DNA of 64,000 nt from Pseudomonadota bacterium (lineage in GTDB: Bacteria > Pseudomonadota > Gammaproteobacteria > Pseudomonadales > Pseudohongiellaceae). The translations under genes were made by a program, and so were the position numbers. Shown here piece after piece: positions 56,098 through 62,531 of this stretch. Location: the NCBI GenBank assembly GCA_027621405.1, contig JAQCBT010000002.1, positions 62,001-126,000 of the forward strand. The letters run 5' to 3'. How positions within the stretch are numbered: position 1 is the first letter of the stretch; every line of letters begins with the position of its first letter. Under the pieces are notes generated by a model. The model was given only the letters and a program-made list of their open reading frames with translations. It was not told the DNA's origin and did no database searches.

Positions 56098-56321
56098 GAA
56101 AGGCGAAAGACTGGTCTGGCTCTAATCCTGTTTTGCTATTAACTGGCTGAAAACTATATAAAAACCCTGCTGTGACGCAGAATGCCTGAATGTTCAGCGC
56201 GCTTACTATTTAGTTTAGACTCAAAATTCCCGACCGTAGTGCTGTCTGGCCCTGGATGCCAGTGTTTCCGCGGCTTTCGTGGGTTGACTTCGATCAAGTG
56301 CTGGCGCATCATCGCGGCCCT

Positions 56322-56384
56322 ATGAATATACAATTCTATTTCTGGTGGTTTGATTATTCGGGCTGCCAGGTGAACAAGTTCTGA
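56322..56384 (+). CDS. trpL: Putative trp operon leader peptide MNIQFYFWWFDYSGCQVNKF
   Basis: 20-codon ORF with tandem TGG codons 134 nt before the trpE(G) start; downstream alternative pairings described in findings. Confidence 0.75.
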   Translation: MNIQFYFWWFDYSGCQVNKF

Positions 56385-56415
56385 TTCATCTTTGGCCGCC
56401 CAGGGTTGTGGCGGT
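56360..56415 (+). promoter_or_regulatory. Candidate trp attenuator alternative structures
   Basis: gggctgcc (56360-56367) can pair 7 of 8 with ggccgccc (56394-56401); gccgcc (56395-56400) can instead pair with ggcggt (56410-56415). No clear U-run follows. Confidence 0.55.
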
Positions 56416-56517
56416 CTATTGCTCTCAAAAAGTTTCCACTCCACGCCATAGCTCAAAGCGGTCTAGACAGGTCCGTTATCAATTCTCTTGATAGCTGGAC
56501 AATAGAGGAGCGTGGCT

Positions 56518-58728
56518 ATGCAAGCCCTTCGTCAAATTCAGTATCAATGTGCCAGCGGCATCCAGGTCCGGCGCAGCGCCCAGTCGTTGAACTACAAAAC
56601 TGCCATGGACGAGCTGGCGTTGGCCCTGAATGCCAATCGTGGTGTGCTGCTGGCTTCCAGTTTCGAATATCCCGGGCGCTACACCCGTCTGGATATCGGG
56701 TTCATTAATCCGCCACTGGAAATAGTCGCCAGAAGCACGTGCATGGAAATCACTGCCTTGAACAAGCGTGGTGAGATCCTTCTACCCGAGTTGTATTTCG
56801 CCCTTCAGGGCAGCGCCTCGATTTCCCGGTTGCATGCGGGCGACCGCAAACTCGAAATCGACGTCAGGCAGGAGGAATACGACGGTTATGAGGAGAACCG
56901 CAGTCGGCGACCCAGTATGTTCTCGGTGTTGCGTGAAATAATTCACTGCTTCGGAAGTGGTGAGGACAGTTACCTTGGCCTCTATGGTGCGTTCGGCTAC
57001 GACCTTACTTTTCAGTTCGAGGATATTGAGCGCTTCCAGAAACGGGATGAAGACCAGCGTGATCTGGTTCTGTATCTCCCGGATCAGATTACCGTTGCCG
57101 ATCACCGTTCCGAACAGACCGTGTGTTACAACTATGAGTTTCAATGTCGAAGCTGGGACTCTGACAGGCGTCAGGAAACCACGGGCGGCTTTCGTCGTCA
57201 GGGGGAAGCACTCAGGTTCGCCCCAGCCATACGCGTGGACAGCTCATGCGATCATGAGCCCGGCGAGTATGCACAGAACGTCAGGCGGGCGCTGCAATAC
57301 TTCCAGCGTGGAGATTTGTTCGAGGTCGTTCCCGGGCAATGCTTCTTCGAGCCCTGTAAAGACTCGCCCGCGGATGTATTCATTCGATTGAAGAAGAACA
57401 ATCCCGCGCCCTATGGCGCACTCATGAATCTGGGTGAGCAGGAATACCTGGTAGCCGCTTCGCCAGAGATGTTTGTGCGCGTCGAGGGACGACAGATCGA
57501 AACCTGCCCAATCTCGGGAACCATCAAGCGCGGTGGCGATGCCATAGAAGATGCGGGACAAGTACTGGCCCTGTTGAATTCGGAGAAAGACAAGTCTGAA
57601 TTATCCATGTGTACGGATGTGGACCGAAATGACAAGGCTCGCGTGTGTGAACCGGGGTCAGTCAGGGTAGTAGGCAGGCGACAGATCGAAATGTATTCAC
57701 GCTTGATTCATACCGTCGATCATGTGAAGGGACAGCTCAGGCAGGAATTCGATGCGCTCGATGGATTCCTGGCCCATACCTGGGCGGTAACCGTAACGGG
57801 CGCGCCAAAGTTGGCCGCCATGCAATATATCGAAGAATATGAGAAGTCACCGCGCCGCTGGTACGGTGGTGCCATCGGCTTTGTCGGCTTCAATGGCAAT
57901 ATGAATACCGGCCTCACCTTGCGTACCCTGCGCATCAAGGATGGGATTGCCGAGATTCGGGCAGGAGCGACACTGTTGGCGGATTCCGATCCTGTCGCGG
58001 AGGAGGAGGAGACTCGCCTCAAGGCCTCGGCCTTGCTGGATGCCGTCAGGGGTGTGTCCAGGACAGCACAGAATAAGGCGGGCAGGGTGCAGTTGTCGCC
58101 TGTCGGTCTCGGCATGAAGGCGTTGATGGTGGATCACCAGGACTCTTTCGTACACAACCTGGGAGCCTATTTCCGCGAGTTTGGTGTCGATCTGTTGACC
58201 CTGCGACCGGAGGCAGCTCGAGACTATCTGCAACACAGTTCGGTAGACATGGTCATTTTGTCACCGGGACCATCCGAACCAGCAACTTTCTCTATGGCAG
58301 AGACGATCGCACTGGCGCTGGAGCGAAACCTGCCAGTTTTCGGTGTATGCCTCGGCCTGCAAGGTCTGGTTGAATACTTCGGTGGCAGTTTGGGAACCCT
58401 GAGTCATCCCATGCACGGGAAATCATCCCCGGTGAATCATGAGGGGGGTGTGTTATTCCAGGGCATAGACAGAAAATTCAATGCGGGAAGGTATCATTCA
58501 CTTGCCGCGGAGCAGGTGCCTGACTGCTTGCGTGTGACCGCCCGAACCGATGATGGCTGTGTGATGGCGGTCGAGCATGCAAGCTTGCCAATCTATGCAG
58601 TGCAGTTTCATCCGGAATCCATCATGAGCCTGGAAGGTTCCATGGGTCACAGATTGATTTACAATTTCCTCGCAGCGATCGCCGGGCAAGCAGAAGGGAA
58701 GCTGGGAGCTAAAACCGGCTCAGGGTAA
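56518..58728 (+). CDS. trpE(G): Anthranilate synthase, fused TrpE-TrpG
   Basis: Chorismate-binding domain (CPISGTIKRGGDAIED, TVTGAPKLAAMQYIEEYEKSPRRWYGGAIG) plus glutamine amidotransferase domain (VFGVCLGLQGLVEYFGG, VQFHPESIMSLEG). Confidence 0.92.
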   Translation: MQALRQIQYQCASGIQVRRSAQSLNYKTAMDELALALNANRGVLLASSFEYPGRYTRLDIGFINPPLEIVARSTCMEITALNKRGEILLPELYFALQGSASISRLHAGDRKLEIDVRQEEYDGYEENRSRRPSMFSVLREIIHCFGSGEDSYLGLYGAFGYDLTFQFEDIERFQKRDEDQRDLVLYLPDQITVADHRSEQTVCYNYEFQCRSWDSDRRQETTGGFRRQGEALRFAPAIRVDSSCDHEPGEYAQNVRRALQYFQRGDLFEVVPGQCFFEPCKDSPADVFIRLKKNNPAPYGALMNLGEQEYLVAASPEMFVRVEGRQIETCPISGTIKRGGDAIEDAGQVLALLNSEKDKSELSMCTDVDRNDKARVCEPGSVRVVGRRQIEMYSRLIHTVDHVKGQLRQEFDALDGFLAHTWAVTVTGAPKLAAMQYIEEYEKSPRRWYGGAIGFVGFNGNMNTGLTLRTLRIKDGIAEIRAGATLLADSDPVAEEEETRLKASALLDAVRGVSRTAQNKAGRVQLSPVGLGMKALMVDHQDSFVHNLGAYFREFGVDLLTLRPEAARDYLQHSSVDMVILSPGPSEPATFSMAETIALALERNLPVFGVCLGLQGLVEYFGGSLGTLSHPMHGKSSPVNHEGGVLFQGIDRKFNAGRYHSLAAEQVPDCLRVTARTDDGCVMAVEHASLPIYAVQFHPESIMSLEGSMGHRLIYNFLAAIAGQAEGKLGAKTGSG

Positions 58729-59801: not shown

Positions 59802-60506
59802 TTATACCTCGAGCCATTCGGCCCGAATATCGTCGGACTGCATGAGGCTGTCGGGAGTGCCCTCGTAGACAATTCGGCCATGTCCCATCACAAACAAGCG
59901 GTGGGAAATGCGCAGTGCTACCGAGAGTTTCTGCTCAACCAGCAGGATCGCAACCCCGCGCGAGGCGATTTCTTCCAGCAAGTCACCAACCTGTTCCACA
60001 ATTTTGGGTGCCAGTCCCTCGGTAGGCTCATCGATCATGATCATGTCCGGGTCGCCCATGAGTGTTCGGCACATGCACAGCATCTGTTGCTCTCCACCGC
60101 TGAGCACACCGCCATGCACATCGGCCCTCTCGGCGAGGTTGGGGAACATGTCGAACATCTCGTCTATGGTCCAGCGACCTTGCACCTGGCCGCTCTTGAT
60201 ACCGAGCAGCAGGTTCTGGCGTACGGTGAGAGTGGGGAAGATGTCGCGATTTTCCGGTACATAACCCAGGCCGCGATGGGCGATCTCGAAGCTGGGCTTG
60301 CCGGCGATTTCTTCTCCCTTGAACAGGATCGAGCCCTGGGGTGCCACTTCACCCATTATCGCTTTTACGGTAGTCGAGCGCCCGACACCGTTTCTGCCCA
60401 GGAGGCTGACGATCTCGCCTTCTTCCACGCTGAAATCAACACCCTGCAGAATGTGACTCTTGCCGTAATAGGCGTGTAGGTTCCTGACCTTAAGCACCGT
60501 CAACAC
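59802..60506 (-). CDS. ABC transporter ATP-binding protein, LivF-like (GTG start)
   Basis: LLGRNGVGRSTTVKAIMG, GYVPENRDIFPTLTVRQNL, LSGGEQQMLCMCRTL. Confidence 0.92.
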   Translation of the reverse strand: MLTVLKVRNLHAYYGKSHILQGVDFSVEEGEIVSLLGRNGVGRSTTVKAIMGEVAPQGSILFKGEEIAGKPSFEIAHRGLGYVPENRDIFPTLTVRQNLLLGIKSGQVQGRWTIDEMFDMFPNLAERADVHGGVLSGGEQQMLCMCRTLMGDPDMIMIDEPTEGLAPKIVEQVGDLLEEIASRGVAILLVEQKLSVALRISHRLFVMGHGRIVYEGTPDSLMQSDDIRAEWLEV

Positions 60507-61287
60507 CCTCCGGGTTCTGTCCCGAACTCGTGTCGGTAGCTGCCTCTGGCACTTCTCCCAGATAGGCTTCCTGTACCCTGGGATTGGCTCGAATGGCTGC
60601 AGGCGTATCGCTGGCAATGATTTCACCATAAACGAGTACCGAAATCCTGTCGGCCACATCGAAGACGATGTTCATGTCGTGTTCGACCATAACCAGGGTC
60701 TTGCCTTCAGTTATTTTGCGGATAAGCGCCACTGCGTTCTCGGCTTCGCTGTGACTCATGCCTGCCACGGGTTCGTCCAGCATGATCAGCTCGGCCCCGC
60801 TGGCAATGGCGATTCCCAGCTCGAGAGCTCTCTGTTGTGCGTATGCCAGTTCTCCCGCGGGGAATTCCGCACGGTCGGCGAGGCCAATCTCCACCAGCAG
60901 TGCCAGGGCCTTGTCATTCAGCTCCTTCTGTCTGCCCAGTAGATGCCAGAATGAGTAACCGAATCCTTCTTTCCACAACAGGCCACAGCGTATGTTTTCG
61001 AAGACACTCAGCCGGGGAAAAATATTGGTGACCTGGAAGCTTCGTGCCAGCCCCAGTCGGGCGATAGCGAACGGCGTCTTGCCTTGTATCTCGTTATCTC
61101 GGAACAGAATCTTTCCTGCTGTCGGCTGGTATTTGCCACTGATCAGGTGAAACAGGGTGGATTTTCCCGCTCCGTTGGGGCCAATGATGGCGTGCCGCTC
61201 GCCAGGCTCAATATCGAGGCTCACATCACGAATGATCCTGGTCTCTCCGAATTGCTTGCTCACGTTTTGCAGGGATAGCATGCTCAT
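60490..61287 (-). CDS. ABC transporter ATP-binding protein, LivG-like
   Basis: IIGPNGAGKSTLFHLISG; branched-chain amino acid type. Confidence 0.93.
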   Translation of the reverse strand: MSMLSLQNVSKQFGETRIIRDVSLDIEPGERHAIIGPNGAGKSTLFHLISGKYQPTAGKILFRDNEIQGKTPFAIARLGLARSFQVTNIFPRLSVFENIRCGLLWKEGFGYSFWHLLGRQKELNDKALALLVEIGLADRAEFPAGELAYAQQRALELGIAIASGAELIMLDEPVAGMSHSEAENAVALIRKITEGKTLVMVEHDMNIVFDVADRISVLVYGEIIASDTPAAIRANPRVQEAYLGEVPEAATDTSSGQNPEGVDGA

Positions 61288-62531
61288 GACGCTTCCCTCT
61301 CTTCGCCAGCCTCATCGATGGCATTTGCCGACTCCCAGGCTTCCCGCAACTGCGGCAAGCTGCGCTTGCAGCCCAGGTAGGCGATCGCAGCGAGTACTGT
61401 GCACATCAGCCAGTGCGACAGATTCGCCGATTCCAGTGGAATTCCCAGGAAGTGAAATACTTCTCCTTCATGGTGCAGCATCTCGATCATGGCGACGCCG
61501 GCGATGGCGAAAACCAGGGCTGGCAGGCCGGTGATGAGGTAGGGCAGTAACAGGCTGCCGAGCTTGCCCCTGATCCAGGCGGTGCGGTGCATCATGATGA
61601 ATCCAGCGAATCCGCGAGGCAGGAAGAGCACTGTCAGCACGAACATGATTCCCAGGTAGAGCATCCATAGCTCGGTGTAATTGCTGAGCAGGGAGTTCAT
61701 GAGGGTCAGAATCACGGCACCGATAATGGGTCCGATGAAATAGCCCAGGCCACCGATATAGGCCATGAGCAGCACCCGGCCCGAGGTGACGGCATTCAGG
61801 TTTTCCTCGGTGATGAATTCATAATTGAGAGCGAACAGGCCGCCGGCGATTCCAGCGAAGAATCCCGCTGCACAGAATGAGATGAAGCGGACACGTCGTG
61901 CGCTATAGCCAATGAACTCTGCACGCTCAGGGTTATCCCGCACGGCATTCGCCATGCGTCCCGCCGGAGTCTGGGTAAACAGATACATGAACAGAGTAGC
62001 GATGAATACCCACGCGGCACCGAGATAATAGATTTCACTATCCTGGAAAAACTCTATTCCAAAAAACGCAGGTCCGTAGGTGCGGTCGGCATTGACGCCT
62101 GCTTCGCCTCCAAAGAAGCTGACAAAGATAAGCGAAGACGCGGCCACCAGTTCCCCGATACCGAGGGAGATCATGGCGAAGACAGTGCCTGCCTTGTGTG
62201 TAGAGAAGCTGCCGATGAATACTGCGGCCAGTAAGCCTATCAGACCACCAATCAAGGGAATGTAGATGATCGAGAAATAGACGGTTTCGTATTCGATCAT
62301 CACCAGTGTATGCACGGCCATGAATCCGCCCAGACCGAAATACACCGCATGCCCAAACGACAGCATGCCGCCTTGGCCCAGCAGCATGTTGTAGCTGAGG
62401 GCGAAGATGATGGCGATAGCCATCTGGTTGAAAATCGTAATGGCCAGTATGGAATCGAAGAGCAGGGGAAGTCCCAGCAATACTCCCAGGTAGGCAAGCC
62501 AGATAGCAGACTTTTTTGCCAGGGTCTTCAT
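61284..62531 (-). CDS. Branched-chain amino acid-type ABC transporter permease, LivM-like
   Basis: NMLLGQGGMLSFGHAVYFGLGGF and multiple TM segments. Confidence 0.92.
   Translation of the reverse strand: MKTLAKKSAIWLAYLGVLLGLPLLFDSILAITIFNQMAIAIIFALSYNMLLGQGGMLSFGHAVYFGLGGFMAVHTLVMIEYETVYFSIIYIPLIGGLIGLLAAVFIGSFSTHKAGTVFAMISLGIGELVAASSLIFVSFFGGEAGVNADRTYGPAFFGIEFFQDSEIYYLGAAWVFIATLFMYLFTQTPAGRMANAVRDNPERAEFIGYSARRVRFISFCAAGFFAGIAGGLFALNYEFITEENLNAVTSGRVLLMAYIGGLGYFIGPIIGAVILTLMNSLLSNYTELWMLYLGIMFVLTVLFLPRGFAGFIMMHRTAWIRGKLGSLLLPYLITGLPALVFAIAGVAMIEMLHHEGEVFHFLGIPLESANLSHWLMCTVLAAIAYLGCKRSLPQLREAWESANAIDEAGEEREAS

Follow-up and report, generated by a model that had tools for sequence, protein, structure and literature searches.

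Does the gene for the fused anthranilate synthase TrpE(G) in this 64,000-nucleotide stretch of DNA (the window) carry an attenuator ahead of it, and if so, does that attenuator act on transcription or on translation? The gene (56518–58728, + strand, 736 amino acids) scores above cut-off for both NCBIfam TIGR01815 and PRK13566, reaching 1003 bits for TIGR01815 (TrpE-clade3), where 739 are required. On another contig the genome also carries trpE and trpG as separate genes, and the attenuated fused gene is therefore a second anthranilate synthase; no leader was seen ahead of the separate trpE, which closely follows an rpe-like gene. Downstream of trpE(G), on the other strand, lie branched-chain amino-acid type ABC transporter-like genes (59802–62531), and no link between these and the leader was seen.

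The first-pass annotation had placed a small ORF with tandem Trp codons before the fused gene. This ORF is indeed found at 56322–56384 (+ strand; 20 codons, MNIQFYFWWFDYSGCQVNKF, stop codon at 56382), with the Trp codons at 56343–56348, and it is conserved in the orthologues, so that the gene is preceded by a short reading frame in which codons for the pathway's end product stand in tandem, a hallmark of ribosome-mediated transcription attenuators. The pattern [YF]F-WW-...-G[CR]Q recurs in the leaders of nearly all family orthologues examined, with single-Trp variants in L013, L015, L139, L156, L158, and L146. A different single-Trp peptide, MNFS...LVQGWRRSLGR-like as read by eye, occurs together with similar stems ahead of trpE(G) in L140, L163, and L166. 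The Phe/Tyr codons that precede the Trp codons (56334–56342 and relatives) are kept with synonymous changes: Phe stands at position −1 in 21 of 22 leaders, and the codon at position −3 is TTC or TTT. These codons, which possibly serve the sensing of other aromatic amino acids, are absent from the g15/g16 leaders examined.

A consensus scan placed a promoter at 56284–56312 (+ strand), consisting of TTGACT (56284–56289), 17 nt, and CATCAT (56307–56312), followed after 9 nt by the leader ATG. All type-I leaders keep the arrangement TTGACW-17 nt-CAnnAT-9 nt-ATG, the exceptions being one with 10 nt and one with TTGACC. Because this spacing is invariant across type-I leaders, the predicted 5′ end of the transcript falls at about 56317–56322, at or a few bases from the leader ATG and not downstream of 56345, where a start had been named beforehand as an observation against the leader; translation of the leader is likely to be nearly leaderless.

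Between the start of the leader ORF and that of trpE(G), we distinguish five segments on the + strand. The Trp codons lie in segment 1 (56342–56351), whose partner is segment 2 (GGGCTGCCAG, 56360–56369); segment 2 can alternatively pair with segment 3 (GGCCGCCC, 56394–56401); and segment 3 can alternatively pair with segment 4, which together with the hairpin loop reads GGGTTGTGGCGGTC (56403–56416). The antiterminator-like pairing proposed between 56360–56367 (GGGCTGCC) and 56394–56401 forms with one mismatch, and the terminator-like pairing of 56395–56400 with 56410–56415 is contained in a helix of 56394–56400 with 56410–56416. What the first-pass annotation missed is segment 5 (CGCCATAGCTC, 56444–56454), a putative anti-Shine-Dalgarno segment, and both its partners: 56403–56413 in the hairpin loop and segment 4, and 56508–56516 in the Shine-Dalgarno (SD) and spacer region of trpE(G) (AGAGGAGCGTGGCT, 56504–56517). 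The loop with segment 4 is a mimic of the trpE(G) SD region.

The comparative alignment that had been recommended for the Trp codons and stems (A1, 25 leaders of the genus, with paired cells counted against slid controls) showed that the five pairings hold in 86 to 99% of cells against 17 to 71% in the controls, a measure of preservation more than of covariation, as the leaders are similar and changes on both sides few. Stem 1:2 was paired in 94% of cells (controls, 17 to 60%), 2:3 in 95% (17 to 61%), 3:4, the best kept stem, in 99% (27 to 71%), 4:5 in 92% (39 to 53%), and 5:SD in 86% (35 to 53%). In two relatives, stem 3:4 shows a change from G-C to A-U. The combination of 1:2 with 3:4 and the stem 2:3 are thus mutually exclusive and conserved, and the preservation of ORF, tandem Trp codons, and stems supports the ribosome-mediated attenuation logic originally suggested for this leader.

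Such logic usually calls to mind transcription, and the E. coli trp operon attenuator is the classical case of ribosome-mediated transcription attenuation. However, the window leader lacks an intrinsic terminator with a U-tract: the tail after the hairpin, CTATTGCTCTCAAA, has no U-run, as the first-pass annotation had remarked, and a promoter/terminator scan found no terminator after the 3:4 hairpin. The U-tail score is about 1.2 in nearly the whole genus (exceptions, L126 with 3.05 and L117 with 2.04; the type II tail, CGTTCTGTTTCCTT, has residual U-richness) versus 2.4 to 3.1 in the sister genera g15 and g16, where the corresponding hairpin is followed by CTTTTT, a canonical U-tract terminator, and lies 42 to 63 nt past the leader stop. 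In genus g1 the hairpin lies 9 to 18 nt past the leader stop and has a U-poor tail; given these differences in distance and tail, the two modes differ in architecture. By analogy with rhizobia and g15/g16, the canonical U-tract form would be the older one.

Classical transcription attenuation would have stem 3:4 terminate without a U-tract, as a weak intrinsic or Rho-assisted terminator, and segment 5 would be incidental or concern mRNA stability. The same gene and the same Trp leader logic in Sinorhizobium meliloti trpL (PMC7298713) speak for it, as do the canonical terminators at the corresponding hairpin in g15/g16 and the preservation of stem 3:4, which exceeds that of every other stem. 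We nevertheless consider it unlikely, as almost all leaders of the genus have a low U-tail score and as it leaves the conserved pairings 4:5 and 5:SD, downstream of the would-be terminator, unexplained; segment 5 lies about 27 nt beyond the hairpin, too late to act on termination there. Of the two readings offered earlier for the missing U-run, a weak terminator is accordingly not favored, while translational control by sequestering finds support in segment 5, which pairs with either the 3′ arm of the hairpin or the SD.

The evidence for segment 5 comes from both duplex analysis and an exchange of partners. Loop and arm 4 together can form a near-continuous helix with segment 5, mostly 11 to 14 bp long, and the best partners of the SD region and of arm 4 share 4 nt or more in 97% of type-I leaders and in every type-II leader, an overlap whose chance level is not negligible because the linker is short. 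In L130 and L135, arm 4 reads GGUGG and segment 5 carries a matching CACC change. In a swap test, in which cognate segment 5/SD pairs were compared with partners exchanged between species, cognate pairs were stronger (T1, p=1e-4), also among 20 leaders less than 80% identical (p<5e-5) and among 10 leaders less than 70% identical (p=4e-4). Windows not overlapping the SD and start showed little or no such preference, with p=0.44 (−40..−22), p=0.89 (+0..+18), and p=0.14 (+40..+58), the lowest value among them being p=0.017 (+20..+38). This test is not circular, because segment 5 was picked by its fit to arm 4 and not to the SD. The corresponding 4:5 test is biased, segment 5 having been selected as the stretch that fits the cognate arm best, and we did not rely on it; the 4:5 alignment count is free of this bias. 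Type-II leaders are too alike for a swap test, and single 5:SD duplexes are mostly non-significant on their own (median p 0.145). The comparison thus reveals a putative anti-SD segment that co-varies with the SD window and is predicted to pair with the downstream start region, as in translational attenuators.

Folding adds a view of how the start region might be freed. The leader as a whole gains only a moderate advantage over shuffled sequences (z −2.4). When the footprint of a stalled ribosome is masked in the window leader, the unforced minimum free energy structure contains 2:3 and 4:5, and when 3:4 is forced, 5:SD forms; the trpE(G) AUG is unpaired in 87% with the stalled ribosome modeled versus 25% with 3:4 forced. 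The SD hexamer of the window copy is not clearly freer upon stalling (0.36 unpaired versus 0.46), only spacer and AUG being so. Of 39 leaders of the genus, 37 need more energy for opening the SD and start when 3:4 is formed, and among 20 divergent leaders the difference from the stalled state amounts to 4.7 kcal/mol, whereas shuffling of the linker reduces it to 0.24 (p=1e-5). For the window copy this difference is 0.5 kcal/mol with 2:3 forced, not above shuffles (L014 being the other such exception), and 3.8 if no pairing is imposed on the stalled leader. The window copy also has an extra hairpin at about 56470–56500 that was not seen in the aligned relatives. Comparison and folding together suggest, more weakly for the window copy, that an alternative partner would free the start region upon ribosome stalling.

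Without a ribosome, the leader at equilibrium combines 1:2 with 4:5, an ON-like state 7.6 kcal/mol better than with 3:4 forced; taken alone as a guide to the leader's state, it is misleading and was set aside. Since the ground state of the free leader is ON-like, the OFF state would require that 3:4 forms first and lasts, i.e., a kinetic trap. The barrier from 3:4 to 4:5, estimated along nested paths that omit a pseudoknot route from the loop to segment 5, is 14 to 19 kcal/mol in 12 leaders (15.9 in the window copy), and such a trap is plausible from these models.

Taken together, comparison and modeling make it probable that the leader attenuates trpE(G) at the level of translation, with the ribosome as mediator. 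The direction of the switch and its response to Trp, as we infer them, would be as follows. Translation of the leader peptide would begin right at the 5′ terminus of the mRNA. With ample Trp-tRNA, the ribosome would reach the stop codon at 56382, and 1:2 and then 3:4 would pair; 3:4 would bury segment 4, leaving segment 5 to pair with the ribosome-binding region of trpE(G) and keeping translation low. When Trp-tRNA is scarce, the ribosome would stall on the Trp codons (56343–56348) and cover segment 1, so that 2:3 forms; the loop and 3′ arm—the SD mimic—would then pair with segment 5, and the trpE(G) start site would be freed. Alternatively, partial termination at 3:4 might be combined with masking by segment 5, a dual control like that of the Bacillus subtilis trp leader but with the ribosome as sensor. 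All that favors a translational attenuator favors this as well, as do the residual U-rich tails of type II, L126, and L117, but the window copy bears no positive sign of termination, and we regard dual control as improbable.

Of the 137 genomes in the family, 73 have a TrpE(G) orthologue at E<=1e-200, and within the order-level sample one genome outside the family has one at E<=1e-150; more distant relatives are mainly from rhizobia and other alphaproteobacteria, cyanobacteria, and others, and those of rhizobia are preceded by the WWWAR-type leader already known. A covariance model of the leader, built from the genus and searched in the own genome and the family, gave a single strong match within the own genome, the one ahead of trpE(G), and no convincing further copies there. 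In the family it found one copy per genome, adjoining trpE(G) wherever both were located, except for G121 with two leader copies and two trpE(G) genes. Order-level matches outside the family were weak (E 0.005 to 0.009). Loss of the leader in relatives, named beforehand as an observation that would speak against it, was confined to genomes that have also lost trpE(G): G008 and G012 hold leader relics (L189 and L190) without trpE(G) downstream, in which the start codon is lost (TTG, ATA), WW has become WR or the ORF is interrupted by a stop, and stem 3:4 is damaged, which looks like decay after loss of trpE(G). That ORF and stems arose by chance and have no regulatory function is hardly credible and already contradicted by these comparative data, for although WW-containing ATG ORFs of 10 to 35 amino acids are not rare by themselves (6 of 590 such ORFs in the window), this one is conserved over divergent orthologues, normally occurs once per genome ahead of trpE(G), and decays where trpE(G) is lost. 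Leaders of genus g19 (L145–L149, L170–L176) are without a U-tract, have the SD inside a hairpin in several cases, and carry a GGYGCAGCCTC-like segment complementary to arm 3, not arm 4; the SD-access model is weak there, and we do not extend the mechanism to this genus or to g20.

We then compared the putative translational attenuator with known elements. Rfam 15 gave no matches at gathering score in the whole window and, for selected loci at E<=5, nothing at the leader. The RF02552 (RcsR1, rnTrpL) covariance model had no match at E<=5 in the window locus (L001), and as a positive control it matched a rhizobial trp leader (L088:2822-2918, 100.3 bits). Searches of openly available full text found no description of this leader. 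The window leader shares with the E. coli trp attenuator the tandem Trp codons in segment 1 and the logic of 1:2/3:4 versus 2:3, but it is without a U-tract terminator and has the additional 4:5/5:SD switch. In erm-type translational attenuators, a ribosome stalled on the leader ORF rearranges hairpins and frees a downstream SD; the rearrangement upon stalling is alike, but this leader would respond to uncharged tRNA-Trp where those respond to an antibiotic. Chen and Yanofsky are said to have described in 2004 a leader-peptide control of B. subtilis rtpA translation, reportedly by ribosome occlusion near the start and without an alternative anti-SD helix; it resembles our leader in Trp-dependent SD access and differs in lacking that helix. 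In the actinobacterial LEU element, it is the Leu codons that pair with the SD, whereas here a separate segment 5, released by an SD mimic, would do so. TRAP of B. subtilis likewise provides Trp-dependent SD access at trpE (PMC11255114), but with a protein as sensor. For S. meliloti trpL, PMC7298713 reports established transcription attenuation and an sRNA, rnTrpL, that begins at the ATG. This rhizobial leader has in common with ours the fused trpE(G) downstream, a (near-)leaderless ORF, consecutive Trp codons, and alternative stems; there, however, a transcription terminator releases the sRNA, whereas here the U-tract is missing, the leader ORF runs through segment 2, and a fifth segment is predicted to mask the start site. 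Translational control via leader ORFs or anti-SD helices is known in other settings (PMC1262725, PMC11255114).

It is tempting to speculate that, in a single bacterial family, a textbook Trp transcription attenuator turned translational by losing its U-tract and gaining an anti-SD segment, the decoy for which is an SD mimic in the former terminator hairpin, and that the conserved Phe/Tyr codons may allow all three aromatic amino acids to be sensed, a scenario that we put forward tentatively. If the translational reading is true, the ribosome-mediated attenuator of an amino-acid gene would here act on the start of translation, not on transcription, in bacteria whose close relatives kept the terminator. 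These relatives would make the change from one mode to the other directly accessible to experiment.
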